Shown one piece after another: positions 3,488 through 19,783 of a stretch of 35,248 nucleotides of DNA. The position numbers were made by a program, and so were the translations under genes. The notes below the pieces were generated by a model. It was not told the DNA's origin and made no database searches. It saw only the letters and a program-made list of their open reading frames with translations. The stretch comes from an uncultured Bacteroidia bacterium (GTDB lineage Bacteria > Bacteroidota > Bacteroidia > Bacteroidales > Prolixibacteraceae): contig CAINLJ010000245.1 in the NCBI GenBank assembly GCA_903850335.1, positions 1-35,248 on the forward strand, written 5' to 3'. The first letter of the stretch is position 1. Each line of letters begins with the position of its first letter.

Positions 3488-4654
3488 TTAAATAGAAAGG
3501 TCAAATTCTCCGAGGTTCAACGGATATTTCCCATATTCACGAACCAGCTTAACTATATAATCGTATGTTTTTCCCGATACGCCGCTCGACACGGAATGAT
3601 CCGACTGGAATATAAACCCCCCGTGTTTAGCGGCATTTAATTTTCTCAGCGTTTCCTCTTTGATAAGTTCAAGATCATTCGTTTCCCAGACCTGGATATT
3701 GTTATTACCACAATAGCCGATTTTATCGCCGTAAAGTTTTTTAAGATTGATCGCGTCCATGTCAGCCTTTACCTCGAGCGGATTATAGGCATCAAGTCCC
3801 ATTTCGATAAAGTCTTCGAAGATAAGACTCACATTTCCGCAACCATGATAAATAACGGGCAGGTTATGTTTATGGCACTCTTCAATCATGGCTTTAACCC
3901 AAGGTTTGAAATATTCGCGCCAATATTCGGGATCAAAAAGCATGGTTTGTTTGAAGGCCACATCGCCCCATATAACAAATCCATCAAGCAATCCATCGGC
4001 AGCAGCTATTTGTGCTTTAGTACAATCGAGGTAAAACTGACCTATTTTCTGAATACAGGCACCTAGCTCATCGGGATACATCCCCATCCAGAAAAGTGTA
4101 TTTGCCTGTCCCACAAGTCGGGTCAGGCATTCGGAACATTCAATAATACTTCCATAAACAGGAATATCAGGATAATAAGATCTTACTGTATTGATCCAGG
4201 GTGGTGAGTTTCTTTCAAATCCGTCACCGACACCGGCAATCTGGTTGTCACCTGCTTCGAAATACCGGCGACGGTCGTAGGGGTCATCAAACTCAAAAAC
4301 CTGAAGTTTCCCGATTGTATCGATATCAAAGGTCATAAATTCAGGCATCTGAAAATCGAATCGTTTACGTAACGTTGCGCCGAAACCCGTCTTGACAACG
4401 ACTTCAATATCGTCCTCGCGGATCGTTTCAAATGGACGGATTATCGGATCCATGTTTGGTGTGGTCACGATCCAGTCGAGATCGTAATAACTGTAAGGCT
4501 CTGCTGTTTCAGGCAGGCCAAGGTCTTTTCTCCAACGTTTTACAAAACTACCCCAAAAGAAATCACTTATCGGAACGCGGTCAGGTTCTTCATGCTTCAA
4601 CGCTTTGTTCATGCGATCAAGCTTTGCAAGGCAGTTATCGGTTCGGGTCCTCAT
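3488..4654 (-). CDS. URO-D superfamily protein (MtaA/CmuA-like), cluster copy 1
   Basis: The 388-residue product starts at the ATG at 4654. A longer open frame reaches 4783 but would overlap the upstream mutarotase gene. The early H-E-E-P-D-R-V-P-I motif is typical of COG0407 URO-D-like proteins. It lacks the N-terminal RPVWxMRQAGR-type signature of true uroporphyrinogen decarboxylase (HemE). Residues H270-G-C272-G-N match the His-x-Cys zinc motif of the corrinoid/thiol methyltransferase branch (MtaA, MtbA, CmuA). Near the C-terminus, where those enzymes have the third ligand Cys, this protein reads QSDHSV (H353). It is the last gene of the rhamnose/fucose cluster, 32 bp after the mutarotase. 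The reaction is unknown; a metal-dependent sugar or methyl-transfer role is inferred. Confidence 0.85.
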   Translation of the reverse strand: MRTRTDNCLAKLDRMNKALKHEEPDRVPISDFFWGSFVKRWRKDLGLPETAEPYSYYDLDWIVTTPNMDPIIRPFETIREDDIEVVVKTGFGATLRKRFDFQMPEFMTFDIDTIGKLQVFEFDDPYDRRRYFEAGDNQIAGVGDGFERNSPPWINTVRSYYPDIPVYGSIIECSECLTRLVGQANTLFWMGMYPDELGACIQKIGQFYLDCTKAQIAAADGLLDGFVIWGDVAFKQTMLFDPEYWREYFKPWVKAMIEECHKHNLPVIYHGCGNVSLIFEDFIEMGLDAYNPLEVKADMDAINLKKLYGDKIGYCGNNNIQVWETNDLELIKEETLRKLNAAKHGGFIFQSDHSVSSGVSGKTYDYIVKLVREYGKYPLNLGEFDLSI

Positions 4655-4686
4655 TGTCAGAAATTTTAAGGGATATTCTTCACTTA

Positions 4687-5010
4687 TTAATCCAGATGAA
4701 AAACTTCTTCCATGTTCGCCCACCATTCTCCATCTGATCGGGTGGATAGTGGTTTTTGCATTGGCATCATGACATCCCACCATTCGAGTGTCTTTGGGTC
4801 TGCTGCCATTTTTGCCATATCCGCCCCAAAATCTTCCCCGGTATATTCCATGTAAGCAAACAGAAGGTTATCCTTATGGTAGATTGAATAGTTCTTTATG
4901 TTGCAGGATGTGATCATCTCAAGTACTTCAGGCCACACGGCTGCATGGTACTGTTTATATTTCTCAAATTGTGATGGATCGACACCAATAATCTGTCCAA
5001 ACCTTTTCAT
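4687..5010 (-). CDS. rhaM: L-rhamnose mutarotase (RhaM/DUF718) family
   Basis: A 107-residue protein of the normal length for this family. It shows the conserved pattern K-R-F-G near the start, H-A-A-V-W-P-E-V, then N-I-K-N-Y-S-I, and a W-W segment near the C-terminus. These proteins interconvert the alpha and beta anomers of 6-deoxysugars such as L-rhamnose, and some relatives act on L-fucose, feeding the isomerase of the catabolic pathway. It lies 25 bp after an alpha-L-fucosidase and 32 bp before a URO-D-like gene, so it belongs to the same transcript. L-fucose is a plausible natural substrate given that neighbour. No isomerase, kinase or aldolase for rhamnose or fucose is in the window. 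Confidence 0.85.
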   Translation of the reverse strand: MKRFGQIIGVDPSQFEKYKQYHAAVWPEVLEMITSCNIKNYSIYHKDNLLFAYMEYTGEDFGADMAKMAADPKTLEWWDVMMPMQKPLSTRSDGEWWANMEEVFHLD

Positions 5011-5035
5011 TTGTATAATTTATTTCTGAGAGTTA

Positions 5036-6334
5036 TCAATTTAATTCTGATGTGATTTCGACAGGCTGTATATTCATTACATTTCCGGCTGTCAGTATTT
5101 CCAAAATGGTATCAATGGGTTGTAAGACGTTTTTATCCAATTCGATCGTATAGGAATTCCTTCGTTTTGTTACCTTAACGTCACCTCCTGACGCGAGACG
5201 AATACCCATAATATTCATTCCGGCAGATGGAAAAACGATTTTTGGGGATTCACCCTTCCAGTTAAGAATGTGCAGATAAATTGTTTTATCATTTCTGGTA
5301 CTTACACACCAGGAAGTTGGTTTGAAAGGGCCTCCCCGGGTGCCGAAGATGGAATAGCCATATTTCTTAAGCCATTCTCCCATTTCCCTTAACCTTGTCA
5401 CCTGTAGTGGTTCAATCCGACCATCAGGCATTGGCCCGACATTGAACAGAAGGTTGCCGCCGCCACCTGCTGAACGTATCAGACTATGGAGACATTGTTC
5501 AGGAGATTTCACCTGATCATTCGGTTTCCAGGCCCACTGATTAGCGATTGTCATGCACGTTTCCCAGGGACGATCGATCTGAAAATCTCCTACTCTTTGT
5601 TCAGGTGTGTCGAAATCTCCTTTTGCCCCTGTACGGTTGTTAACAATAATATCGGGTTGAACCTTTCGGATTTCATCGATTACGCTTTGGCCCCTTACTG
5701 CATCAAATTCCATAGGAACATCGTACCACATGACTAATAATGGTCCGTACTTTTTTATGATCTCAACTGACTCATTCTTTAAATAGGTGGTGTACCTATC
5801 CAGATTTGATGTTGGACGTTTAACTTTACCCCCTGGGCTTGTGAGTGGGAAATCAGGGTGGTGCCAGTCACAGGTTGAATGGTAGAAACCAAGGGCCATT
5901 CCTTGTTTTTTGCAGGCATCTGCCAGTTCTTTCATTACATCCCTCTTAAAAGGCGAGTTCATGATATTGTAATCGGTATACTTAGTGTCCCACATGCAAA
6001 ATCCGTCATGGTGTTTCGATGTAAATACGATATACTTCATACCCGCATCTTTTGCCAGTTTCACCCATTCGTCTGCATTAAAGTTTGAAGGATTAAACTG
6101 TTTATAAAGGTTATCATATTCTTCTATTGGCACTTCGCTTCCGCGTGACCAGCCAATCTCTGTTCCTTTGAGACTTACAGGTCCCCAATGGATAAACATC
6201 CCAAAACGGGCATCCTGCCACCAGTTTAACTTTTGCTGCAATGATGGATCATTTCCACAAAATGCATTCAGGCTTAAGATGAGGAATGAAATCTGGAATA
6301 TTGCTTTCTTCATAGTCAAAGTTCTATTAATCAT
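5036..6334 (-). CDS. GH29 alpha-L-fucosidase
   Basis: A 432-residue secreted glycosidase with an N-terminal signal sequence (hydrophobic to ~residue 26). The GH29 barrel is clear: WWQDARFGMFIHWGP at 38-52, KHHDGF at 107-112, and MWYD at 202-205, where D205 is the expected nucleophile. A GDFDTPEQ segment (E245) and GGGNLLFNVGP at 290-301 are further GH29 landmarks. It should release terminal L-fucose from glycans in the periplasm. The ATG at 6334 overlaps the TGA of the upstream URO-D-like gene (ATGA), which suggests translational coupling. An internal ATG at 6313 would give a more compact signal peptide. The C-terminal ~90 residues are a beta-sandwich-like appendage. Confidence 0.93.
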   Translation of the reverse strand: MINRTLTMKKAIFQISFLILSLNAFCGNDPSLQQKLNWWQDARFGMFIHWGPVSLKGTEIGWSRGSEVPIEEYDNLYKQFNPSNFNADEWVKLAKDAGMKYIVFTSKHHDGFCMWDTKYTDYNIMNSPFKRDVMKELADACKKQGMALGFYHSTCDWHHPDFPLTSPGGKVKRPTSNLDRYTTYLKNESVEIIKKYGPLLVMWYDVPMEFDAVRGQSVIDEIRKVQPDIIVNNRTGAKGDFDTPEQRVGDFQIDRPWETCMTIANQWAWKPNDQVKSPEQCLHSLIRSAGGGGNLLFNVGPMPDGRIEPLQVTRLREMGEWLKKYGYSIFGTRGGPFKPTSWCVSTRNDKTIYLHILNWKGESPKIVFPSAGMNIMGIRLASGGDVKVTKRRNSYTIELDKNVLQPIDTILEILTAGNVMNIQPVEITSELN

Positions 6335-7593
6335 TTTGAATTAAATTCTTTTACTGCCTCATACATCGCAATAATATTTTCAGGCGGAACGTCTGGTAGG
6401 ATATTGTGTACGGTATTGAAAACGAATCCGCCACCCTTCGAGAATATTTCAAGACGTTCGAGTACCTGCTCTCGTATTTTTGCAGGCGATCCAATGTTTA
6501 GAGTCCCAACAGTTTCAATTCCTCCTCCCCAGAAAGTACACTGTTCTCCAAATTCTCTTTTTAGGAAGTCCGGCTTCATCTGGTAGGCATTTGTCTGGAC
6601 TGGATTAAAAATCTCTATTCCGGCATCAATAAGATCGGGCATCAGAAGTGATATGGATCCGCATGAATGGATAAATGTATGCATTTTACTATGAGTCTTA
6701 ACATAGTCGCACAAGATTTTGTGTCGCGGTTTGAACAATTCCCGATAGGTATTTACATCCATAAAGGGTCCGGAGCTCATTCCAAGGTCGTCACCAAAAC
6801 GGATTATATCAACGAGATCGCCAATGGCAGCACAGACTTTTTCGAGTGTGGCCAGATGTCTTTTCAGTAGTTCATCCAGTAATTTCTCAACGTTGTAAGG
6901 GTCACAGATCAAATCCATAAGAAAATTATCCATTCGTCTTAGAAAAGTTCCCCATTCAAAAAGATTGCAACCGCAAACGACAAGCAGTGCCTTATCCGTA
7001 CTTTGCTTTAGTTTGATTGTATTTTCGCGCAGAGTTTGCCAAAATCCCGGATCTCCTGCATGGTCCCAGGGGCTGTGTACGTGTCGTGCCCACATGATCC
7101 TGCCCATCTCTTTATCAAGATTCCCGTAATCATCGGGATAACCATCCACATAAGGAAAGTATGTCTGGTCGAAAAATGTTGCACCAACAGGCATTCTCGA
7201 CAAATTTATTTTGCCGGACCTGTCATAGGTGTTGTACGAACCATCTGGCATAAGAATTGGATTAAACCATTGAGGATAAAAAGCCTGCGAACCGTTTGAC
7301 ATTGTAACCGGACGCCAGTCTTCCGGTTTTGTGTTGAAAGTCCTTCCAATATCCAGAACATCAACACCAAACTGATTCAGAATAGTCATGTCAGGTTGTG
7401 CAAGTTGTTGTACAACATCATAAATCCGGGTCTGCAAGTCGCCGCGTCCGAGCTTATTTATTAGATTACTGTAGGCTATGGCCGAAATACCTGAACTGGG
7501 TGTGGCACTCAGGTCAACAGGCACCTTGTCGGGTTGCTGATGGTTTATTGTTGCGATTATCCGTTCTCTGGAATTCATTAAAGGTTCTGCCAT
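6331..7593 (-). CDS. URO-D superfamily protein (MtaA/CmuA-like), cluster copy 2
   Basis: A 420-residue soluble protein; the start could also be the ATG at 7578 (MNSRERI). It has the opening R-E-R-I-I-A-T-I-N-H-Q-Q-P-D-K-V-P pattern of URO-D-like proteins, and no HemE signature. H309-S-C311-G-S corresponds to the His-x-Cys metal motif. The position of the third ligand reads FNTVHNILPDVPPENI, giving H396 instead of Cys. It is ~30 residues longer than copy 1, with an insertion at ~95-165 rich in aromatic residues and Asp. The gene lies between the RhaT-type permease (52 bp upstream) and the fucosidase (4-bp overlap), which ties it to deoxysugar use. Function is otherwise unknown. Confidence 0.85.
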   Translation of the reverse strand: MAEPLMNSRERIIATINHQQPDKVPVDLSATPSSGISAIAYSNLINKLGRGDLQTRIYDVVQQLAQPDMTILNQFGVDVLDIGRTFNTKPEDWRPVTMSNGSQAFYPQWFNPILMPDGSYNTYDRSGKINLSRMPVGATFFDQTYFPYVDGYPDDYGNLDKEMGRIMWARHVHSPWDHAGDPGFWQTLRENTIKLKQSTDKALLVVCGCNLFEWGTFLRRMDNFLMDLICDPYNVEKLLDELLKRHLATLEKVCAAIGDLVDIIRFGDDLGMSSGPFMDVNTYRELFKPRHKILCDYVKTHSKMHTFIHSCGSISLLMPDLIDAGIEIFNPVQTNAYQMKPDFLKREFGEQCTFWGGGIETVGTLNIGSPAKIREQVLERLEIFSKGGGFVFNTVHNILPDVPPENIIAMYEAVKEFNSK

Positions 7594-7644
7594 ATTTTTA
7601 TTTTTTACAGAGCGTATATTTTAAATCAAAAGCTTTGGTATGAA

Positions 7645-8688
7645 TTAATTCGATCCGCTGATACCAATGATAAACGACGAAAGGATTATTATCAGCAGGG
7701 AAAGGGCCATAAGAACGTAAATTTTCAGAGGTGTTCCTCTCCATTCATTGCGTATCAAACCCCAGACTGTCGCAAAAACAATTGTCAATGCCATAAGGAT
7801 ACCCCATGAAGTAAATGTAAATGGCCCCATTTTGCTTTTACCCATTCCATAAACTATGAACTGACCAAACCACAGAAATCCTGCTAAAATCGCATACAAA
7901 TAATTTAACGCCAGGGTCTTCCGGGATTTTGAAGTTATATAGTTTTGCAGTGATCTGTTTTTTGCACCGAGGTAAACACACCAAATTATTGTAGTAATGA
8001 ATGTGCCTGAAAAAAGGACAAGAAGGACTGGCATCATGGTAAATAGCGGATCTACACCCTGTTTGGCAGCCATCTCCGAAATGGGTAATCCCTGCTCGAA
8101 TCCAAGTGACATTGCAGAGCCTGTAACTCCGACAACAAGAGCCGAGATTAATCCTTTAATGAGATTAAACTCACTGATTGTTAATTGCTTATTAGCAGTC
8201 GGAATATTCTTGTCCTTAAGAATTCCAGCCCATGAGGAGAGAGCAATTCCAAAACATGCAACAATAACTCCCACAATTAATTGCATGCCACCCGAGTGTT
8301 GCATCATCATGCTTAACCTACCGTCGATTGCCGGAGGAATCAGGGTACCGATAGCAAGCATCAAGCCTAACGAAAGTGCGTAACCTAACGATAACCCAAG
8401 ATATCGCAATGCGAGTCCAAACGACAAATTACCAATTCCATAAACACCTCCAAGAAGGAATACAATTAGTAAGGTTTTGCCTGAGGTCATTTGTATAATT
8501 TCGGCATAACCAGGAGCAAAGATCAGACAGGCAGTGACCGGGAATAAGATATACGCACCGAAACTGAAGACCATCCAGTAAGTTTCCCATTTCCAGTCTT
8601 CGATTTTTGTAAATGGAACCGCAAAACTTCCTGACGAAAAAGCACCAAGTGCAATAAGCAGAATACCAAAAAGTACAGCCGTATTCAT
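7645..8688 (-). CDS. rhaT: RhaT-type L-rhamnose/H+ symporter family permease
   Basis: A 347-residue integral membrane protein with about ten hydrophobic helices and the RhaT hallmarks: GAFSSGSFAVPFTKI near the N-terminus, W-K-W-E-T-Y-W, and a long Gly-rich stretch (GGVYGIGNLSFGLALRYLG) in helices 3-4. Characterised members carry L-rhamnose across the inner membrane with protons. With an alpha-L-fucosidase and a mutarotase in the same operon, the cargo here may be L-fucose, rhamnose or a methylated derivative. It is the first gene of the five-gene minus-strand cluster and diverges from an AraC regulator. A TATGTTTG -7-like element lies 23-30 bp upstream of its ATG. Confidence 0.88.
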   Translation of the reverse strand: MNTAVLFGILLIALGAFSSGSFAVPFTKIEDWKWETYWMVFSFGAYILFPVTACLIFAPGYAEIIQMTSGKTLLIVFLLGGVYGIGNLSFGLALRYLGLSLGYALSLGLMLAIGTLIPPAIDGRLSMMMQHSGGMQLIVGVIVACFGIALSSWAGILKDKNIPTANKQLTISEFNLIKGLISALVVGVTGSAMSLGFEQGLPISEMAAKQGVDPLFTMMPVLLVLFSGTFITTIIWCVYLGAKNRSLQNYITSKSRKTLALNYLYAILAGFLWFGQFIVYGMGKSKMGPFTFTSWGILMALTIVFATVWGLIRNEWRGTPLKIYVLMALSLLIIILSSFIIGISGSN

Positions 8689-8842: not shown

Positions 8843-9703
8843 ATGATTTCAGAGCAAATAGGTGAATCATTTACCTTTCATCTTCGAAATATAGCATTAT
8901 TAAGTTTTGAAAATGATGCAGACTACACGGATATTATCAGTCCGTTTTCAAGAATTTATCTTATTACTGCGGGTTCCGGTTACCTGATTACGGGAAATCG
9001 AAAAATAGTACTCGAAGCAGGAAACCTCTATCTGGTTCCGGCATTTATCTCATGTTCCTATCATTTTGGTAAAGGGTTATGTCATTATTATATTCATTTC
9101 AGTATTGATCAGCCCAATGGGTTAAGTGCTTTTAGTATCTATTCGGTTAACTATTCGGCATCTTCCAGCGATCTGGATCAGAGTCTGTTTAGTCGTATTC
9201 TGGAGATTAATCCTGATTTACAACTTCCTCACCATCATCCTAAAATTTATCAGAATAAGTTGTGGATGAATAAAAAGGTGACATATAGTTCTGTAAGTCA
9301 GCATATTGAGACGATAGGTATTTTGAAACAACTTTTCTCCCGTTTTCTTAAACCGGATCAGGACCATGCGATAAATAGTATACTGAAATACAATATACAA
9401 CCTATATTGCTATATATTCAGGACAATCTGGGGCAGGACATCTCTGTGGATCAACTGGCGGAAATAGCCTGTTTTTCGAAGGATCATTTTTCAAGGATCT
9501 TCAAGAATATAATTGGTTTGGCTCCCTGTGAATACATAATCCGGAAACGCATTGAGAAGGCCCAGTTTCTATTGCTTGCCACTGATCTGACACAGGAGCA
9601 GATCATTGACAAGACAAATTTTAAGAGTGATTCCTATTTCTGTCGCATTTTTAAGAAATATACATCCTTTACTCCCGCCAGGTATCGTAAACAGAGAGGA
9701 TGA
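8843..9703 (+). CDS. AraC-family transcriptional regulator
   Basis: A 286-residue cytosolic regulator. Residues ~20-110 look like the cupin-type sensor domain (YLITAGSGYLITGN, LYLVPAF, HYYIHF). The last ~94 residues hold the double helix-turn-helix, with ISVDQLAEIACFSKDHFSRIFK as the first (split across residues ~200-222) and a second ending SYFCRIFKKYTSFTPARYRKQR. It diverges from the rhaT-led cluster across a 154-bp spacer, the usual arrangement for a local sugar-responsive activator. The likely effector is the transported deoxysugar or its derivative. The gene is followed by repetitive DNA with no clear terminator. Confidence 0.92.
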   Translation: MISEQIGESFTFHLRNIALLSFENDADYTDIISPFSRIYLITAGSGYLITGNRKIVLEAGNLYLVPAFISCSYHFGKGLCHYYIHFSIDQPNGLSAFSIYSVNYSASSSDLDQSLFSRILEINPDLQLPHHHPKIYQNKLWMNKKVTYSSVSQHIETIGILKQLFSRFLKPDQDHAINSILKYNIQPILLYIQDNLGQDISVDQLAEIACFSKDHFSRIFKNIIGLAPCEYIIRKRIEKAQFLLLATDLTQEQIIDKTNFKSDSYFCRIFKKYTSFTPARYRKQRG

Positions 9704-11303: not shown

Positions 11304-12395
11304 TTAATGGTTCTTTTCGGCCCAAACCTTTCCGGATTCATTGATATGCCATATTTTGTCTGATGCGGTTTGTTTTGCGGTAACCTCGTAACCACCGGAA
11401 GTTAACTTAATTTCAGGATTGAATTTCAATTCTGAAGATTTGTAATCGTCCATGCCGTCCAGGTCAGTAATAGCTGAGGCATATCTCTGATAACTTATAT
11501 GGTGTCTTTTTTGACTGTAATACAAGATTCGGAGTTCATCTTTTACTTCATCTTCGAGGTTAGAGATAAATGCGGCTGTTCCTTTACCACAAATAATATC
11601 CGAAAACTGGACATACCCCCATTTATCCGGGATATGCATATTTACTGATCCCTGAGGCGACCATACCCAGTTATCTTCCGGCAGACGTTTGCCGGTTTTT
11701 GGATTTACTTTTTTAAAATACTGACCATTTTGAACCGAGGCCTGCCACTCAACCCTTGAAAAGTTGACTCTCCACTGATCTCCCTGTCTGACAGGTACAA
11801 CTGCGGATGAGTCACCAAGTGATTTCAAAGGAAAGGCTATTTCGACACCCCACATCCGATCCGTATCGGAAGGATTATTTATAGTGCCGTCGATGCTGAC
11901 AGCAGAAATCATTTTGTCGAAATTCCATGTAGTAATCGGAATGCCTCCATCACGATAGGGTTTAGTAAGTAGAAGGTCCCATTGGGTGTTGAGTGCGTTG
12001 ACTTCAAATTCAAAATATTTATGCGTATCCCCATCCGGATCAATAAATACTTCAAAATCGTTATTAAGATAAATTACTGTATCACGCTGTCTTAGGTTTG
12101 CCCAGATATGTGGCTCATAAATTTCGGCAAAAACGTAGAAATATTTTGTATCCCACAACATTTTGGTGCGTGTCCGAAATCTTGGAGGACTTTGTTGATT
12201 ACCTGTTATATCCACGAAGTCGTCTGTCCAGTCGGCCATCTGCCAACTTTTCTCATCGGCTTTTCCATCAATTTTAAGGGATGAAGCAGCCTTATAACAT
12301 ACATAATGTTTAGGCAAACTTATCTTTTGACCCTGGACATTTAAAGCCAGACAAAGCAAAAAGCCACAATTAAAGAAAATCGTTTTAAAATCCAT
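11304..12395 (-). CDS. Secreted CBM9-like carbohydrate-binding protein
   Basis: A 363-residue exported protein with a signal peptide ending near residue 22 (LNVQGQ). Residues ~30-240 form a CBM9-like (DOMON-type) beta-sandwich: LKIDGKADEKSW, the strand TKMLWDTKYFYVFAEIYEP, the motif NNDFEVFIDPDGD that typically binds a metal, and YFEFEVNALNTQWDLLL. Such proteins bind sugar chain ends or act as accessory subunits. The C-terminal ~120 residues are of unclear type, with a long charged helix then beta strands. It is the last gene of the epimerase-GH38-URO-D operon, 22 bp after the URO-D-like gene. Confidence 0.85.
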   Translation of the reverse strand: MDFKTIFFNCGFLLCLALNVQGQKISLPKHYVCYKAASSLKIDGKADEKSWQMADWTDDFVDITGNQQSPPRFRTRTKMLWDTKYFYVFAEIYEPHIWANLRQRDTVIYLNNDFEVFIDPDGDTHKYFEFEVNALNTQWDLLLTKPYRDGGIPITTWNFDKMISAVSIDGTINNPSDTDRMWGVEIAFPLKSLGDSSAVVPVRQGDQWRVNFSRVEWQASVQNGQYFKKVNPKTGKRLPEDNWVWSPQGSVNMHIPDKWGYVQFSDIICGKGTAAFISNLEDEVKDELRILYYSQKRHHISYQRYASAITDLDGMDDYKSSELKFNPEIKLTSGGYEVTAKQTASDKIWHINESGKVWAEKNH

Positions 12396-12417: not shown

Positions 12418-13437
12418 TCAAAAACTGCGTGCTGTTCTGATCATCATCCTGATATTTTCTTCAGGCGTCATCGATGGAATAGCGCATCCGGCATTAAGAA
12501 TAAACCGGTTGTTTTTTTCAAAGGTATGAAGCAATTCCAATGTCTTTTTTTCTACAAGTTGAGGAGTCCCCAGGGCGAGCACCCCGCTTGGATCTATATT
12601 CCCAATTAAACATGCTTTACCGTTGAATATTTCCAGAGCTTTTTTGGCGCCTGTTTTATAGTCAAGCTCAAACGCATCAGAGCCTGTTGTTAGCATATCC
12701 TCAAGGATTGTGTCTGTATTCCCACAAATATGAAGTGTGTAAGGCAGGTTTACTTTATGAGCCTCTGCGACAAGAATTTTTTCCGAAGGCAGGGCGAACT
12801 GCCTGTACATATCAGGCGAGATCATCTCAGGTCCTGCAGGACTATCACCGTTCGATACCATGTGGCAGCCCGTCTGGGCCATAAGACGGATAAACTGGCA
12901 ACTTATATCGGTTGCTACTGAGAGTAATTCATCAATAAGTCCAGCTTCACCAATCATTAAATCCAGCATCCATTCCTGACTGCCGCGCATCATACTCGCT
13001 AATGAAAAAGGAGCCTGATCGCAGTTGCCTCTAACATAAACCTCATCCTTAAAATGATTTTTTATCCGATAGACTGCCTCAAGCCAAATCCCGGCATATT
13101 TGTAGTTTTCGACTCTTATCTTTCCTAAATTCCGGATATCAGACAATTCAGCCAGGTTTCCCTTTCCTGACCTGGCAGGTTCATTTTCAGGGAAATCGAC
13201 AGGCACTCCTGCGGAACCTGCTAAAGTCACTGTATCCAGGTCGACAAGTATCCCATCTAAATCATATTTTTCAACCGAACGGATAAATGTTTCGGCCATG
13301 TTCTGAGCACTTTCCCGGAACTGATGCATTGTGAAACCAGCTTCGACAGCAGCCATCATAAAATTATGCAGCATAATTGGAGTCTTGTCTGGCTTTTGGC
13401 CATTCAGTGCTGCGTTGATTCGTTCAAATCCGTTCAT
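12418..13437 (-). CDS. URO-D superfamily protein with full HxC...C motif, copy 3
   Basis: A 339-residue cytosolic protein, the same length as MtaA/MtbA-type methylcobamide:thiol methyltransferases. It starts with the family pattern F-E-R-I-N-A-A-L-N-G-Q-K-P-D-K-T-P. H236-I-C238-G-N-T is the zinc His-x-Cys motif, and C318 in N-A-G-C-A-I-P-S-M-T-P-E-E-N supplies the third ligand, giving H-x-C-x79-C as in MtaA-like enzymes. G-N-I-D-P (279-283) is also conserved in that branch. The haem-enzyme signature is absent. It lies between a GH38-type mannosidase and a CBM9-like protein. A methyl-transfer role on methylated mannosides or another sugar is inferred; no corrinoid protein is nearby. Confidence 0.88.
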   Translation of the reverse strand: MNGFERINAALNGQKPDKTPIMLHNFMMAAVEAGFTMHQFRESAQNMAETFIRSVEKYDLDGILVDLDTVTLAGSAGVPVDFPENEPARSGKGNLAELSDIRNLGKIRVENYKYAGIWLEAVYRIKNHFKDEVYVRGNCDQAPFSLASMMRGSQEWMLDLMIGEAGLIDELLSVATDISCQFIRLMAQTGCHMVSNGDSPAGPEMISPDMYRQFALPSEKILVAEAHKVNLPYTLHICGNTDTILEDMLTTGSDAFELDYKTGAKKALEIFNGKACLIGNIDPSGVLALGTPQLVEKKTLELLHTFEKNNRFILNAGCAIPSMTPEENIRMMIRTARSF

Positions 13438-13515: not shown

Positions 13516-16500
13516 TCAGAAACTAATCTTAACCGTTTCAATTGCGTTATGGCCCAGGTTCACAGTAACGCCTGACTCCTTCGAATTTATTGGTTCTCCG
13601 TCAGCCTCAATAAGACTGGTGTGTTTTGCATTTTTGATTTGCCGGAAACTCTGAAGTACTATTTCCTGCTCTTTACCTTCCATTTCAGCTACCCGGATTA
13701 TTAAACAATCACTATCCTCTCCCTTTTTTATCGTTGAGACAATAACGTTTGATCCGTTTGTTTTAAAAAAACTACACGATTCAGGAAGTGAGGCATTATC
13801 AAATCTGTGAGCGGGAAGAACAGCGATGAGTTTTTCGTTAGATTCATGACCAAACGATGCTCCGTTTTTCCATCCGGGTTTGTGGGACGTGAAGGAAAAG
13901 CTGAAGGAGTGATTACCGGTTTGAAGATAATCATTACCCTCCCAGTGACAACTCTTGCGGGATGCGAGGAGGATAGGCTGTAAGACCTGGTTCTTAATAG
14001 GGTTATCTGTAGGATCGATCCAGTCTGCAACTACTACTGATGAACTAAGTGTAACTCCAAATCTGGAATTGTCTGAGCCAATCCAGTTTTGTATTCCCCG
14101 GGGATGTACGTTTTTACATTCTGTCCGATAACGCTCGCCTGCAGCACCCTGAATCTCATCTTTTCCTACTTCAACAACACCAAATGGTACTTCGTATGCA
14201 ACCTTACCATCTGTCATATTCAGAGGAAGTGCCATCCTGTATTCATGATAAAGAACACCTTCCCAGTTTAGAATTTCAGGTTCAAAGTCAATCCTCTTCT
14301 GATCATGAAAGACCTTGATATGCTGTTGGATTACTGCAAATTTGATGTGTTGCCGGAATTTGTACTTTGTAAAAACTGGCCCATCTTCTTCAATTTCCCA
14401 TTTTGTCTGATAATTTCCTGTTTTGTCAAAATCCTTCATGTCGGGTTTTTGAATATCGGCAAATTCTCCTGCTCCATTTCCTTCTGAATGCATCGTAAAG
14501 ACCTCACCTGCCTTAAACTTACCCCCATCAATAAGTTCCTCTCCCAATTCTTTATCATAGACTGAGGTGAGGCCACCATCGCCAAAGGTTATCCTGTAAA
14601 ACTTATTCTCAGCCTGATTACGAAATTCAGGTGCCGGTTTCTGCTCAGTTTTTTTAGCATTTTTCAAATAATAGGTTGTAAATCCGATGGAAGGGACCGT
14701 GTCTGCCAAAAAATGCAGATCGGCCGACTTTATAGAACCATCCTCGTAATATTGAGCAGCACCTAACTGGGTGGAAAGTGCTTTTCCTGAAATGTCAATT
14801 AATTCTATTCCAAAGATTTCAGCCTTATTAAAGTTAAGTGGAACGACCACTTTATCTGTGCGTGACTGGTTCATACTGTTGAAAACAACAACAGGCCTTC
14901 CTTTTTTATTGTTTGTTTTAATTTTTGAAGCCAGTTCATTCAGACTCTTGTCAACAATTTTTTCAGCTTCTGATTTCGCAAATTCATACTTTGACTGAAA
15001 GAAAGCATCTGTTATATCGCCATGTTTTCCGCCCCATCCATGATCCGGAAAGATTTTCGCTTCCCAGGCATTCGTCAGTTTTGTCTGCGGATAGTTTGTA
15101 AAAGAACCGTCAATTATTGAATTTATAGCCGAGAATTTTTCAGCGATTGTAAGAAGTATATCTGCTTCTCTGCTGGCTTTGAGTGCTTTTTGATGTGATG
15201 GGCCATGTATATAAAGCCAAACAGCCGGTCGTTCGCCCTTTATCACGGGTAATTGAGGGTTCTGTTTCAAAAGGGATTCAAAAAATTCTGGAGTTGTTGC
15301 TACCTTAAACCGGGGAAGGTTTAGAAGGATATTCTTCCCTTGTTCATTAGGAAGTTCATGAATATTCTCCCAGTTATTGATCAGGTGGCTGTAATCTTTT
15401 GAAGGACTCATATCCCAGTCTGAAAGAATCGGAATGACTGGCGAAGGTGATTTTGCAGTATAAAACTTCTCCCAATCCATTGATGTCTTGGAAATAAACT
15501 GAGCAGCCTCATTAAAATTCCTGTTCAGCGACATAAATGCATCGCCGTAATGACCCGGTGAAAAAACAGTAACATATGATCCATCAGGACTATACCAATT
15601 AAATATGCCTCTGTTATGACGGCTTATCATTAATGATTTCGTTCCTGCTTTTCGCATAAGCTGAGCCATTTGCAACGTACGTCCCGGGACGTCCTCATTC
15701 CAATAGACTGTGGCATCATAGTTAAATTCATCTTTCAGCCATTTAGCCCCAAAATAAAACTGGCGGGCCAGGGCTTCGCCGGAATACATCTCCTCATAAG
15801 GCTGAATAAAGGTTGATCCGCATGAAAGACGCCCGTCAGCAAACATCTGCTTTAGTAAAGGTTTCTTGTCTGGATGACGTTGAAAGAATTCCCTTATCAT
15901 GAGTGCATCCTCAATATCGAAACGATAATTCTTGTCCTGCCCTGCAAGCCTGAATAATGGGGTAAGCAACATTGTGTCGCGTTCAATCACACATTTCTCA
16001 GGAGAATCCATCCAGGCAATATCCTGATGACTCGAGTTCATAAGCAGAATCTGACCCTTTCCAAGTATTGAATTTGAGAGGGTGAACAAACCTGCGACCG
16101 TATTGGGATCATAGGTCCGGTTTGCCTCGATGATGATTCTTCCATCAGTTACTGATGATTGATTGGAAAGGACTGCCTTATTTAAAAACCTTGTCGATTT
16201 GGTTGCTTCACCGAATGATTTGACACCAATAATTTCACCCTGAAGGTCCGAAAGTGTGAATGGTTTATTTCTTGCTTTTAAAGGCAAATTAAATACTGCC
16301 AAAGAACCTTTGGCATCCTGTTTTAACTGGATCTTTTTTGTTTTTCCAAGTGAAGAGAAACTAATTTCATTTCCATTCAGATAGCTATCTCCAATAATCC
16401 GGCATTCAAGTGATCCCTCCTTTTCTGAGGCTTCCAACTTCAGGTTGAGGTCGTACTTTAATGAATTTTGTAAATATGACAGGGCATCACTTGCCTGATA

Positions 16501-17067
16501 AACAATAACCCATACATTGTTTTTGTTGGCTCTTCCGGTGATACTGATTTTTTGGGATACCCCTTTTTTAAGCCAGGATGCCGGAGCAATGAGTGACATA
16601 TAGCCATGATTTCCTTCCTGATCGTCAGCTTGAACAGTTGTAAATGAAAGTTTTCCTCCATCTGCTGACGTAACCTCCCATTCCTTGTTCAGTGAGGAGA
16701 CGATCTCAAACCGCTTTACACCATTTACAAATACGTCAAAAATATTGGGGTCCTTAATGCGGTTTACAGAGGCAATCCAAAGGAATCCAGCCTGTTGTCC
16801 GGTAAAAGTATCCTGCAAAGTTTGTGTTTCCCACTCGATTGCCATTGTCCCATCCGAACATCTTGTGATCATTCCCTCCGTTACATCAGTCCTAAAATTG
16901 TGGTAGGAAAATGCATTTTGGCCGGTATTCTTTTGAAAACCTTCGAGCCAGGATTTCGATTTTTCTGCAAGATTATATAATCCCTGCCTGTTAATTTCTG
17001 TAGCAGAGACTTTAGATACTGTAATGGATACAAGCAGGGACAGTATGAGCAGTCTGAATTTGTTCAT
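13516..17067 (-). CDS. GH38-type alpha-mannosidase (secreted)
   Basis: A large secreted protein of 1183 residues with a signal peptide (~22 residues). The N-terminal ~330 residues are an extra beta-rich part not found in minimal GH38 enzymes. The GH38 barrel begins near 338 with ILLMNSSHQDIAWMDS, where H347 and D349 are zinc ligands. It continues to YWNEDVPGRTLQMAQLMRKAG, where D459 is the likely nucleophile, and a helical section (~630-690) precedes the C-terminal beta domains. It should cleave alpha-mannosides in the periplasm, though the exact linkage cannot be told. It starts 8 bp after the epimerase-family gene and precedes the URO-D-like gene by 78 bp, so all are probably co-transcribed. 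Confidence 0.9.
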   Translation of the reverse strand: MNKFRLLILSLLVSITVSKVSATEINRQGLYNLAEKSKSWLEGFQKNTGQNAFSYHNFRTDVTEGMITRCSDGTMAIEWETQTLQDTFTGQQAGFLWIASVNRIKDPNIFDVFVNGVKRFEIVSSLNKEWEVTSADGGKLSFTTVQADDQEGNHGYMSLIAPASWLKKGVSQKISITGRANKNNVWVIVYQASDALSYLQNSLKYDLNLKLEASEKEGSLECRIIGDSYLNGNEISFSSLGKTKKIQLKQDAKGSLAVFNLPLKARNKPFTLSDLQGEIIGVKSFGEATKSTRFLNKAVLSNQSSVTDGRIIIEANRTYDPNTVAGLFTLSNSILGKGQILLMNSSHQDIAWMDSPEKCVIERDTMLLTPLFRLAGQDKNYRFDIEDALMIREFFQRHPDKKPLLKQMFADGRLSCGSTFIQPYEEMYSGEALARQFYFGAKWLKDEFNYDATVYWNEDVPGRTLQMAQLMRKAGTKSLMISRHNRGIFNWYSPDGSYVTVFSPGHYGDAFMSLNRNFNEAAQFISKTSMDWEKFYTAKSPSPVIPILSDWDMSPSKDYSHLINNWENIHELPNEQGKNILLNLPRFKVATTPEFFESLLKQNPQLPVIKGERPAVWLYIHGPSHQKALKASREADILLTIAEKFSAINSIIDGSFTNYPQTKLTNAWEAKIFPDHGWGGKHGDITDAFFQSKYEFAKSEAEKIVDKSLNELASKIKTNNKKGRPVVVFNSMNQSRTDKVVVPLNFNKAEIFGIELIDISGKALSTQLGAAQYYEDGSIKSADLHFLADTVPSIGFTTYYLKNAKKTEQKPAPEFRNQAENKFYRITFGDGGLTSVYDKELGEELIDGGKFKAGEVFTMHSEGNGAGEFADIQKPDMKDFDKTGNYQTKWEIEEDGPVFTKYKFRQHIKFAVIQQHIKVFHDQKRIDFEPEILNWEGVLYHEYRMALPLNMTDGKVAYEVPFGVVEVGKDEIQGAAGERYRTECKNVHPRGIQNWIGSDNSRFGVTLSSSVVVADWIDPTDNPIKNQVLQPILLASRKSCHWEGNDYLQTGNHSFSFSFTSHKPGWKNGASFGHESNEKLIAVLPAHRFDNASLPESCSFFKTNGSNVIVSTIKKGEDSDCLIIRVAEMEGKEQEIVLQSFRQIKNAKHTSLIEADGEPINSKESGVTVNLGHNAIETVKISF

Positions 17068-17075
17068 TCTGATTG

Positions 17076-18335
17076 TTATTTATTGTTTATCAGGGAATTG
17101 ATTCTTGTAATAAGTTCCATCATGGCGCGTCCGTTATGGTATGGGCATTTCCATGGATCAATTTTCCAGTCATTGCGGTAATAAGGAGACGGATCATCTG
17201 CCGGTTCTTCCAGGTAAGGAACACCAAGCCGGCTGACTTTTGTGAACCATTCACCATGTTTATGATCGATCAAACAGGTGTCTATGAAATTCCAGGATAG
17301 TTTTAGTTTCTCCCAGTAGGCTGTATCTGAAGTCATTTGGAGCCCATTCATGAGTGCGACAAGAGTTTCGGCTTGAGGCCACCAATGTTTATTTGTTCGC
17401 AGATGACTACCAAAACGTGTTGATTCGAGGAAGAGACCTCCGTCCTTGTCTATTCCAACCCGTTCAACCGCCTGGAGCATTTTGATTGACAGAGGTTTCA
17501 TCTTTTGGATAATCTCCTGATCTCCCAAAATTTCAGCTGCTTCCCATAGCAACCACGATGCTTCGATATCGTGTCCAAAGGAGCACGTGCCTTTCGAAGC
17601 TTCAGCTTCTGTAAATTGTTCATCAAAGAAAATGCCCAGATGACCGCTTTTACGAATGATTTTGTCGATAAACAATTCGAGTAATTCCTTTAACCGGTGG
17701 CGTACAAGGTCGTCTTTGCATACTTTATAAAATGCAGCATAGGCTTCCATGATATGCAGGTGTGTATTCATCGAACGGGGTTCATTGTTATCTGCCATCC
17801 GGTTTTCGGAATACAAATGCCAGTCGCGGGTAAAGGCCTCAAAATAACCTGGATTGTGCGGATCTTTTGTTTTTTCCTCCAGTAAGGAGAAATATTCTCT
17901 GAGCAGTTGTAAAAGCTCAGGATTTTGGTTCAATTCATAATACTTACTTAACGAATAGAGGACGAATGCCTGAGCATAGGTATGTTTTATGTCGTCGAGA
18001 GGTTTGTTTTCAGAGTCGACGCTCATCAGATATCCCCCGTTTACCGGATCTGAAAAGTATTTCATAAGAACCTGGTAGGCGCGGTCGGCAATTAGTGCAT
18101 ATTGGGCATTGTTAAAATTTTTTGCTGCTTCGGAGAAGGTCCACAGGATTCGTGCATTCAGGACACAGGATTTTGGTGCGCCGGCTATTGGATTACCCTC
18201 AAGGTCCACTGCACCATAAAAGCCGTCTCCATCTTTTTCGATGGAGTATTTCATCCAAAATGACAGGATATCTTCATGTAATTCATGCCCGAAAATATTT
18301 GAATATTCTAACAACTGGCTGTTCATTGATTCCAT
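17076..18335 (-). CDS. AGE-family epimerase, cellobiose 2-epimerase-like
   Basis: A 419-residue cytosolic (alpha/alpha)6-barrel enzyme of the N-acylglucosamine 2-epimerase superfamily. The motifs fit the cellobiose 2-epimerase branch: N-x-H-L-H (H192, H194), SFGHDIEASWLLWEAA (H255), KHWWPQAE (316-323) and KCPYHNGRAM (H400). In that branch such histidines act as the general acid/base. It would interconvert a beta-linked glucose and mannose residue at the reducing end of a disaccharide. Beside an alpha-mannosidase, a mannose isomerase or mannoside epimerase activity is also possible. It has no signal peptide and is the first gene of its operon, diverging from the cytochrome gene. The start may be the ATG at 18335 or at 18326. 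Confidence 0.88.
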   Translation of the reverse strand: MESMNSQLLEYSNIFGHELHEDILSFWMKYSIEKDGDGFYGAVDLEGNPIAGAPKSCVLNARILWTFSEAAKNFNNAQYALIADRAYQVLMKYFSDPVNGGYLMSVDSENKPLDDIKHTYAQAFVLYSLSKYYELNQNPELLQLLREYFSLLEEKTKDPHNPGYFEAFTRDWHLYSENRMADNNEPRSMNTHLHIMEAYAAFYKVCKDDLVRHRLKELLELFIDKIIRKSGHLGIFFDEQFTEAEASKGTCSFGHDIEASWLLWEAAEILGDQEIIQKMKPLSIKMLQAVERVGIDKDGGLFLESTRFGSHLRTNKHWWPQAETLVALMNGLQMTSDTAYWEKLKLSWNFIDTCLIDHKHGEWFTKVSRLGVPYLEEPADDPSPYYRNDWKIDPWKCPYHNGRAMMELITRINSLINNK

Positions 18336-18470: not shown

Positions 18471-18478
18471 TAGATTTG
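18471..18478 (+). promoter_or_regulatory. Candidate -7 element for the redox operon
   Basis: TAGATTTG matches TAnnTTTG exactly. It would place the transcript start around 18484, upstream of the ATG at 18506 and downstream of a TTG at 18476. This supports the ATG as the true start of the cytochrome gene. Confidence 0.5.
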
Positions 18479-18505
18479 CCGTACAACTTACTAAACAAAC
18501 TCACC

Positions 18506-19015
18506 ATGCCACAACACATCAAGCGCCTGATAGGCGTGTTTGCTATTTTTATAGTATTGTTTCTGGTTATGCGCCAGGTTTTGAAACCAAGCTCATTTGG
18601 AGAGCTAGGACATTTTAGGGCAAAGGCTATTTATGAGAATACCTTAAGGCCGATGCATTATACGATTGCGGATAGTTGCACGAAATGTCATAAGTCTATC
18701 CGGGCAGACAAAGACCAGGGATTTCACAAAAAGCTCAAGTGTGAGGTTTGCCATGGCCCGGGATTGAAACATTCACTTTTTGCGAATCAGTTTAAGGGGA
18801 AGGAATTGCCAGACTCCCTCATATTGTACAAGCCCGGAGAACGTAAGGATTGTGCAATTTGTCATCAGATTAACGCAGCCAGGATTAAAATACTCTTCGA
18901 CACTATCAATAATACAATGATCAAACAGATTGATGTTGCCGAACACAATCCTCCCGATTTAAAGGCCAATGAACCTGCCAAATGTATTGATTGTCATAAT
19001 CCTCATCAGCCATGA
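18506..19015 (+). CDS. Membrane-anchored tetraheme cytochrome c
   Basis: A 169-residue protein with an uncleaved N-terminal membrane helix (~8-24) and a periplasmic part holding four CxxCH haem c sites: CTKCH (58), CEVCH (79), CAICH (116) and CIDCH (160, close to the C-terminus). Further histidines (H51, H74, H90, H146) may be axial ligands. I chose the ATG at 18506 over an in-frame TTG at 18476 because the promoter element covers the latter. The stop overlaps the next start (ATGA), so it is translationally coupled to the ferredoxin subunit. It probably passes electrons between the quinone-linked membrane module and a periplasmic partner. The size and haem number recall NrfB/NrfH- or Tmc-like small multihaem proteins, but the family is not certain. 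Confidence 0.85.
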   Translation: MPQHIKRLIGVFAIFIVLFLVMRQVLKPSSFGELGHFRAKAIYENTLRPMHYTIADSCTKCHKSIRADKDQGFHKKLKCEVCHGPGLKHSLFANQFKGKELPDSLILYKPGERKDCAICHQINAARIKILFDTINNTMIKQIDVAEHNPPDLKANEPAKCIDCHNPHQP

Positions 19016-19782
19016 AAAACGAAAAAAATAGTCTTACAAGAAGAGATTTCTTCAAAGCTGGTACGATTCTGGCCAGCGGCGTTGCTATTGCCGGATCAGC
19101 AGTCATCCCTTATGACGGCGTACTTTTTGCAGCCGAAGCACCCGGAGCAAAAGGAAAATGGTATGGCATAGGTATCGATATCAATAAGTGTATCGGTTGT
19201 GGAAGATGTGCAAACGCCTGTAAACAAGAAAATAATGTACCCAAGGATCCGTTTTATTTCCGTTCATGGGTAGAGCAATATACGATAAAGAATGATGGTT
19301 CTGTCCTCGTCGAATCTCCCAATGGCGGCATTGACGGATTTAAACAATCTGTGCCTGACAAGGAAATTTTCAAATCATTCTTTGTCCCAAAAATGTGTAA
19401 CCATTGTGCTAAATCCCCTTGTACCCAGGTGTGCCCGGTGGGAGCAACTTTTGAAACAGAGGAAGGAATTGTTCTTGTTGATGAGAATTATTGCATTGGC
19501 TGCAGGTATTGCGTACAGGCATGTCCTTATGGTTGCAGGTATATTCACCCGGATAAGGGAACTGTTGATAAGTGCACCTTATGCTTCCACAGACTTAAAA
19601 AAGGGTATCAGCCTGCCTGTTTTGAAATATGTCCTACCGAGGCAAGAATTTTTGGTGATCTGAATGATCCTGGAAGTAAATTGAACTACTTCCTTAAAAA
19701 TCATACCTGTATGGTTGTTAAGCCGCATTTGAATACTGGTTCAAAATTATTTTATAACGCAATAAGTCCGGAGGTCAGATAA
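19012..19782 (+). CDS. Tat-exported four-[4Fe-4S] ferredoxin subunit (NrfC/DmsB-like)
   Basis: A 256-residue electron-transfer subunit. It opens with a Tat signal, T-R-R-D-F-F-K-A-G (9-17), followed by a hydrophobic stretch. Sixteen cysteines in four groups would hold four [4Fe-4S] clusters: C60/63/66/70 (CIGCGRCANAC), C129/132/137/141, C161/164/167/171 (CIGCRYCVQAC) and C188/191/203/207. This is the standard arrangement of NrfC, PsrB, DmsB and the Hmc/Qrc/ACIII iron-sulfur subunits. Overlap with the cytochrome gene and a 1-bp gap to the NrfD-type gene imply a stable periplasmic complex. No molybdopterin catalytic subunit is in the window. Confidence 0.92.
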   Translation: MKNEKNSLTRRDFFKAGTILASGVAIAGSAVIPYDGVLFAAEAPGAKGKWYGIGIDINKCIGCGRCANACKQENNVPKDPFYFRSWVEQYTIKNDGSVLVESPNGGIDGFKQSVPDKEIFKSFFVPKMCNHCAKSPCTQVCPVGATFETEEGIVLVDENYCIGCRYCVQACPYGCRYIHPDKGTVDKCTLCFHRLKKGYQPACFEICPTEARIFGDLNDPGSKLNYFLKNHTCMVVKPHLNTGSKLFYNAISPEVR

Positions 19783-19783
19783 T

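Follow-up and report, generated by a model that had tools for sequence, protein, structure and literature searches.

The operon and its genes

The window analysed here is a 35,248-nucleotide stretch of DNA (positions 1 to 35,248 of contig CAINLJ010000245.1, GenBank assembly GCA_903850335.1) from an uncultured member of the Prolixibacteraceae, order Bacteroidales, phylum Bacteroidota. Its minus strand carries, from position 8688 down to 3488, a five-gene operon in which a RhaT-family symporter, a glycoside hydrolase (GH) of family 29 and a RhaM-family mutarotase are combined with two members of the uroporphyrinogen decarboxylase (UROD) superfamily, UROD1 and UROD2, and whose possible role in corrinoid-dependent demethylation of sugars is our subject. 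The initial annotation had described a tight operon with the sugar genes and the two UROD genes interleaved, and this is what we found: all five genes matched the expected Pfam families, and successive genes are separated by 51, -4, 25 and 32 bases.

7645–8688, minus strand: RhaT-family sugar:H+ symporter (PF06379, 194.8 bits), putative importer of the released sugar
6331–7593, minus strand: UROD2 (PF01208, 73.9 bits; cut-off 23.9)
5036–6334, minus strand: GH29 alpha-L-fucosidase with an N-terminal signal-like segment (PF01120, 296.6 bits; cut-off 25.2)
4687–5010, minus strand: RhaM-family mutarotase (PF05336, 117.6 bits)
3488–4654, minus strand: UROD1 (PF01208, 69.4 bits), start taken from relatives
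8843–9703, plus strand: divergent AraC-family regulator (PF12833/PF00165)

The ATGA overlap previously reported between UROD2 and GH29 is present in the DNA (6334–6331), although the GH29 start actually used may lie 21 nt further downstream, at a second in-frame ATG that would suit the signal-like start of the protein. The best PDB matches of GH29 (9eu4, 9eu1 and 6gn6) are all solved fucosidases. The UROD1 frame as listed (start 4783, 431 amino acids) overlaps RhaM; because its relatives begin at the 44th codon of that frame, the start was shifted to 4654, 32 nt past the RhaM stop. An AraC regulator likewise adjoins RhaT at four related loci (L088, L089, L091 and L068; loci, genomes and contigs carry our numbers with the prefixes L, G and C). 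The window also holds a third UROD gene, UROD3 (12418–13437), which is MtaA-like and had not been listed before.

UROD1 and UROD2 have a His-x-Cys...His triad

All three window URODs exceed the PF01208 cut-off, UROD3 with 216 bits. UROD1 and UROD2 were rejected as HemE, with scores of 24.5 and 19.8 bits against TIGR01464 (equivalog cut-off 302.95), and the same genome has a HemE-like gene elsewhere (contig C111; PF01208, 334 bits). Membership of the MtaA/CmuA family (TIGR01463, cut-off 235.4) was rejected as well, with 27.4 bits for UROD1, 44 bits for UROD2 and His rather than Cys as the third ligand.

Both proteins do carry the His-x-Cys motif that had been noticed earlier, HGC in UROD1 and HSC in UROD2, as part of a triad that reads His-x-Cys...His and not His-x-Cys...Cys. 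In UROD2 the triad residues are H309-x-C311...H396, and a GDD stands at 267–269; in an alignment of 54 UROD2 relatives G267, D269, H309, G312 and H396 are among the invariant columns and C311 is found in at least 90%. The third motif (VHNI/DHSV) aligns with the conserved His of HemE. The loci that we fetched contained 149 UROD matches among 1709 frames, and 136 of these, 300–560 amino acids long, were aligned (shorter and longer UROD frames and the duplicate locus L224 were left out). The triad was His-Cys-His in 98 of the 136 and Leu-Lys-His in one HemE, and 14 MtaA-like URODs had either His-Cys-Cys (6) or Phe-Cys-Cys (8), the latter with Phe replacing the first His. Passages of PMC10418091 ascribe a His-Cys-Cys triad to the S-methyltransferases of the superfamily and state that in its O-methyltransferases Cys is replaced by carboxylates or non-ligands; the absence of a third Cys is consistent with an oxygen substrate.

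AlphaFold models were confident, with predicted local distance difference test (pLDDT) scores of 96.7 for UROD2 and 93.9 for UROD1, and their fold matches to MtaA and HemE place both proteins in the UROD fold used by corrinoid O-demethylase systems. For UROD2 the top solved fold was MtaA (4ay7, E 1.1e-12), above HemE. No close solved relative was found in the PDB, where a profile built from nine relatives gave MtaA first (E 0.0005), then HemE (0.0012) and CdmB (0.0076), all weak matches.

UROD2 recurs with the same sugar genes

The UROD2 relatives that we compared were the best 80 from a scan of 84,980 species. Their neighbours were labelled by best phmmer matches to proteins of this genome or of its relatives, many by eye, and a subset was Pfam-scanned; counts of neighbours are minima because many contigs are short. 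Surveyed for GH29 and RhaT, these UROD neighbourhoods showed RhaT-UROD2-GH29 in five other fetched genomes (L088, L089, L090, L093 and L068), with RhaM following in the three whose contigs extend far enough (L089, L093 and L068), and an operon with a corrinoid protein in L091, described below. All five window genes in the same order were found only in L093, whereas in L089 and L068 the four genes that precede UROD1 occur without it. The operon arrangement is not due to chance. Among the 37 closest loci (L088–L124), RhaM was present in 11, GH29 in 10, RhaT in 7, UROD1 in 7 and a corrinoid protein in 1, as against 1, 2, 1, 2 and 0, respectively, among the 43 more distant ones.

UROD1 adjoins RhaM or UROD2 in L093, L095, L103, L104 and L116, and the last four are spirochaete loci in which it stands beside UROD2. 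Where both UROD genes occur, transport is represented by ATP-binding cassette (ABC) proteins in L095, L104 and L116 and by a sodium:solute symporter (SSS-type) protein in L112, and RhaM is present in L095, L103 and L112. Within the order of the window UROD2 is rare: at a threshold of E 1e-60 it was matched in 4 of 149 genomes. In L068 (13446–13883, G006:C15), from a genome without RACE (the reductive activase discussed below), the UROD2 operon is adjoined by a weak corrinoid-protein match and, after it, a UROD fragment containing a stop; together they look like a decayed cassette.

Corrinoid operons in Carboxylicivirga sediminis and related genomes

In Carboxylicivirga sediminis UROD2 and a corrinoid protein share one operon (L091), which reads RhaT-UROD2-RhaM-corrinoid protein-MtaA-like UROD-CobW-MetH-activation-like protein (families Pfam-checked) and has a GH29 gene adjoining it on the other strand. 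The UROD2 ortholog in it is 77% identical to that of the window, and in the UROD tree both fall within one eight-member clade (support 1.0). In the same genome the cassette recurs (L223) with a galactokinase (TIGR00131, 288.7 bits; cut-off 226.65) and another His-Cys-His UROD. Within about 14 kb of L223 lie homologues of a GH16 agarase D (4asm, 307.7 bits), a GH86 agarase/porphyranase (8h97, 664.5 bits) and a 3,6-anhydro-L-galactonate cycloisomerase (5xd7, 624.9 bits), and its surroundings also include genes for a 2-keto-3-deoxy-6-phosphogluconate (KDPG) aldolase-type protein, a PfkB-type kinase, an aldose epimerase and an aldehyde dehydrogenase. The galactokinase cassette also occurs, there together with RACE, in G042 (L080) and G132 (L081), which belong to the same order as the window. 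No MtaB was matched in the cassettes of L091, L223, L080 or L081.

Porphyran carries 6-O-methylgalactose (PMC10033563), which is the sugar expected at L223 because the cassette sits inside an agar/porphyran locus; judged by gene content, the galactokinase-UROD-corrinoid cassette of L223 and L235 is a candidate anaerobic 6-O-methylgalactose demethylase. A P450 of marine Bacteroidota strips the methyl from this sugar and so enables its catabolism; it belongs to another protein family, needs redox partners, works oxidatively and yields formaldehyde (PMC10033563); the cassette looks like its anaerobic counterpart. Strain JR1 of C. sediminis, being a named strain with the galactokinase- and agarase-linked cassette, makes the reading directly testable.

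The MtaA-like URODs of these cassettes have a thioredoxin-like C-terminus, scoring around the Pfam cut-off of 24.8 bits:

L080, 4527–5885: MtaA-like UROD with thioredoxin-like end (23.1 bits)
L081, 8511–9866: MtaA-like UROD with thioredoxin-like end (24.1 bits)
L091, 12319–13680: MtaA-like UROD with thioredoxin-like end (26.6 bits)
L223, 7891–9258: MtaA-like UROD with thioredoxin-like end (23.9 bits)

MtaA-like URODs as a whole form no single clade in the UROD tree, so their unity is unproved.

A corrinoid hub elsewhere in the genome

A genome search with PF02310 and PF02607 returned MetH, one clear MtaC-type protein (C136), a 218-amino-acid B12-binding protein (C251) and a weak 310-amino-acid frame (C135); PF02310 alone also matched a 722-amino-acid frame at C160. 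On C136, MtaC, MtaB (PF12176, 526 bits), CobW and RACE lie in a single run; a Gfo/Idh oxidoreductase comes next, a GH78 rhamnosidase stands on either side, and an AraC regulator is also present (L027, 5652–18569). The RACE protein is a reductive activase (PF14574, 206.3 bits), as found in O-demethylase systems. Absence of corrinoid and folate methyl-transfer genes, together with another proven reaction for the URODs, was to have counted against a demethylation system, and MtaC, MtaB and RACE are there. The only clear MtaC-type protein thus lies outside the operon, whereas in L091 the corrinoid protein lies inside it; the C136 protein may be the cognate partner of the operon URODs. The order GH78-Gfo/Idh-RACE-CobW-MtaB-MtaC-AraC recurs in L180.

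PF01208 has 16 matches in this genome, HemE and one broken copy included. Contig C143 encodes two URODs, one of UROD2 type and one MtaA-like, along with a homocysteine methyltransferase homologue and a MetH-activation-like protein. Three PF01208 genes at C180 lie with GH29 and GH95, and one at C85 lies with GH38, D-lyxose isomerase, a PfkB-type kinase, mannitol dehydrogenase and DUF4432. Loci in which a UROD2 paralog accompanies GH38-type, D-lyxose isomerase, PfkB-type kinase and mannitol dehydrogenase genes (L030 1549–10270, which is C85, and L120, L121 and L124) possibly encode a methylated mannose pathway.

The neighbourhoods of RACE were fetched from 20 carrier genomes, with many short contigs among them, and 8 had an MtaC-like gene nearby (L180–L183, L185, L190, L191 and L197). 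L180–L183, the RACE stretches of the L088, L089, L090 and L092 genomes, contain MtaC and MtaB with RACE, as here, and the hub of the L092 genome adds an MtaA-like UROD and a MetH-activation-like gene. L185 (Marispirochaeta) and L191 (Sphaerochaetaceae) have MtaC, an MtaA-like UROD and RACE, and no MtaB was matched in either. In G007 (L072 7050–15332) MtaC and RACE occur with a pterin-binding methyltransferase, methylenetetrahydrofolate reductase, formate-tetrahydrofolate ligase and a formate/nitrite transporter (Pfam), and G131 (L084 4590–11704) has a gene set that resembles it by eye; these gene sets suggest that in some Bacteroidota the methyl group may be oxidized to formate.

RACE accompanies genomes rich in URODs

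In the order of the window, RACE was found in 11 of 149 genomes, and all 11 had at least three PF01208 matches: it occurs in 11 of the 18 genomes with three or more URODs vs 0 of the 131 others (p 2e-12). At most 12 candidates per genome were scored for these counts, so that this genome has 12 here and 16 in its own PF01208 search. Counted by family within the order, the figures are 8 of 14 vs 0 of at least 104; the underlying total, 118 families, was read from labels and is a lower bound. MtaA-like URODs are expected to accompany RACE in any case. With only URODs below 150 bits counted (one 22.5-bit match also omitted), RACE was present in 7 of the 8 genomes with four or more such URODs vs 4 of the 141 others.

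RACE was also found in 43 of the 50 tested genomes with UROD2 relatives, which represent 50 of the best 80 loci. Its frequency was 12 of 18 among Bacteroidota carriers, classified by record title, vs 13 of 296 in a sample of the phylum (p 5e-11), and 8 of 8 among carriers from Verrucomicrobia and Lentisphaerae vs 70 of 194 Verrucomicrobiota (p 4e-4); all these tests correct for relatedness only partly. A PF02607 search of the RACE-less carriers and G006 revealed an MtaC-like gene near a MetH-activation-like gene in G446, G475, G478, G006 and G468, short frames in G466 and only longer frames in G458.

A proposed route and its alternatives

The likely role of the operon, in our view, is to release an O-methylated 6-deoxyhexose, import it and demethylate it in the absence of oxygen, by means of corrinoid-dependent URODs. 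The initial annotation had suggested that the cluster could do this, and the genome evidence now speaks for it: the C136 genes, the L091 operon and RACE in most carriers. In the pathway that we infer from gene content, order, homology, predicted fold and co-occurrence, GH29 would free the methylated sugar outside the cytoplasm, RhaT would carry it in and RhaM would equilibrate its anomers. At a metal coordinated by His-x-Cys...His, UROD2 would bind the methoxy oxygen of the sugar and transfer the methyl to the Co(I) corrinoid that a small MtaC-type protein carries, and UROD1 probably acts likewise on another position or isomer. The demethylated sugar could then enter ordinary fucose or rhamnose catabolism. 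The distant C136 hub, with its corrinoid protein and activase, may serve many of the genome's URODs, and the methyl group would be passed on by MtaA-like URODs, the homocysteine methyltransferase homologue or MetH. That UROD2 is part of a corrinoid methyl-transfer system is well supported, and it is a candidate sugar-O-methyl:corrinoid-protein methyltransferase (methyltransferase I, MT-I). Judged by its partner genes, its substrate is most plausibly an O-methylated deoxysugar, and UROD1 is a probable second sugar-linked demethylase. The sugar may be fucose, for which GH29 argues, or rhamnose, after which RhaT and RhaM were named, although families of this kind are not strictly specific.

A number of observations weigh against this interpretation. 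UROD2 is directly linked to a corrinoid gene at only 1 of the best 80 loci. Seven of the 50 carrier genomes have no RACE, and in one of these, G472, the PF02607 search gave no match; RACE is, moreover, common in Verrucomicrobiota anyway. L184, the RACE stretch of the L093 genome, which has all five window genes, showed no MtaC or MtaB nearby. Because the hub MtaC adjoins MtaB, the hub may serve methanol. The initial annotation had proposed looking for folate methyltransferases besides the corrinoid protein and RACE, which were both found; a PF00809 search of this genome for a methyl-folate:corrinoid methyltransferase gave only a FolP-size frame and MetH. It had also seen no HemE features in the URODs, which holds for their scores, far below the HemE cut-off, but not for the third motif, which sits at the HemE His, nor for single-sequence PDB searches with UROD1 and UROD2, whose matches, weak ones, were to HemE entries only. 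The top fold for the UROD1 model is HemE (2eja), followed in sixth place, with a similar E-value, by MtaA (4ay8), and the His in third position matches neither kind of substitute for Cys that PMC10418091 lists for O-methyltransferases. Finally, the likeness to OdmB, VdmB, MtvB and MtoB, which share a UROD-superfamily first methyltransferase, a small corrinoid protein and an activator, was drawn from descriptions, not sequences.

Several of these points would favour sugar-linked URODs that perform corrinoid-free sugar chemistry, as lyases, epimerases or decarboxylases, beside a hub that serves methanol only, via MtaB. Most UROD2 relatives do not lie beside a corrinoid gene, the hub MtaC is next to MtaB or one gene away both here and in L180–L183, and the third motif and the UROD1 fold recall HemE. 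Such chemistry gives no reason, however, for the one-operon linkage in L091, L223, L080 and L081, whose cassettes lack a match to MtaB, or for the co-occurrence with RACE, and we regard it as unlikely.

We give a slightly smaller chance to the URODs being corrinoid O-demethylases for methoxylated aromatic aglycones freed from rhamnosides or fucosides. The GH78 family, two members of which flank the C136 hub, can act on plant glycosides. Known UROD-superfamily O-demethylases use methoxylated aromatics, OdmB, VdmB, MtvB and MtoB among them (PMC13222342), whereas the partners here are sugar genes (RhaT, RhaM, GH29, galactokinase, lyxose isomerase and agar catabolism) and the corrinoid genes are mostly not adjacent; no aromatic gene was recognized by eye in 11 loci, in which many frames had no Pfam scan.

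It is very improbable that this is an ordinary fucose or rhamnose utilization operon with the URODs as mere passengers. GH29, RhaT and RhaM alone would be enough to release and import a deoxyhexose, but UROD1 and UROD2 stay paired in spirochaete and Verrucomicrobia loci despite other transporters, and because this pairing persists they look like members of the module. Least credible of all is a role like that proposed for type 1 mlp clusters, the demethylation of methyl-sulfur or methyl-selenium compounds. These clusters share several URODs, a corrinoid protein and RACE with this genome, but their Mlp2 and Mlp3, in their methyl-S/Se context, have His-Cys-Cys (PMC10418091), as opposed to His-Cys-His in UROD1 and UROD2, whose identified neighbours are sugar genes.

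Two known enzymes resemble the UROD2 of the demethylation route that we favour. The methylcobamide:thiol methyltransferases MtaA/MtbA (4ay7) share its fold and the His-x-Cys but have Cys as third ligand; MtaA is a second-step enzyme, unlike the first-step role proposed for UROD2. CdmB, the chloromethane methyltransferase (9rui), is a UROD-fold first methyltransferase with a corrinoid partner, as proposed here, although it acts on a haloalkane and has no zinc. Vitamin B12-dependent methyl transfer is known for aromatics. In the literature searched, with subscription papers and most preprints outside its scope, we found no anaerobic or corrinoid-dependent sugar demethylation, so that novelty is unproven; passages of PMC10805028 and PMC10880615 contain none either, and the only route of sugar demethylation met was oxidative.

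More broadly, though with somewhat less assurance than for the operon itself, we lean towards a modular, oxygen-independent sugar O-demethylation in which sugar-specific His-x-Cys...His URODs, each accompanied by a dedicated glycosidase, transporter, mutarotase or kinase, feed a shared B12 hub. It would extend over Bacteroidota, Spirochaetes, Verrucomicrobia, Planctomycetes, Acidobacteria and Lokiarchaeota, comprise fucose/rhamnose, agar/porphyran galactose and mannose types, and send the methyl group to methionine, folate or formate. Many glycans of algae, plants and microbes are capped with O-methyl sugars. An anaerobic B12 route, if real, would account for the last stage of breakdown of such glycans where oxygen is absent, assign functions to a large group of genes at present annotated as 'uroporphyrinogen decarboxylase' and supply anaerobic food webs with a further source of methyl groups.

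Second operon and other genes

A second operon of the window runs from 18335 to 11304:

17076–18335, minus strand: N-acylglucosamine 2-epimerase-family protein (PF07221, 162.2 bits)
13516–17067, minus strand: GH38-family alpha-mannosidase (PF01074, 82.4 bits)
12418–13437, minus strand: UROD3, MtaA-like (PF01208, 216 bits; TIGR01463, 169.4 bits), triad His-x-Cys...Cys by alignment
11304–12395, minus strand: carbohydrate-binding module 9 (CBM9)-like protein, last gene of the operon (PF06452, 42.5 bits)

UROD3 misses both family cut-offs (TIGR01463, 169.4 vs 235.4 bits; HemE TIGR01464, 92.3 vs 302.95 bits) and is a candidate second-step methyltransferase.

Elsewhere in this genome, a UROD at C265 (L034 9008–9807) is split into two overlapping frames, and its adjoining genes resemble those of hydroxyproline catabolism. 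In the 218-amino-acid B12-binding protein of C251 (L028 4423–5079) ExHxxG (ENHQVG) replaces DxHxxG; it may be a methyl carrier or a sensor. In the window, multihaem cytochrome-like, 4Fe-4S and NrfD-type membrane proteins are encoded in one run at 18476–20983, which constitutes a redox module, and a rubredoxin fused to a flavin reductase is encoded at 1360–2064.

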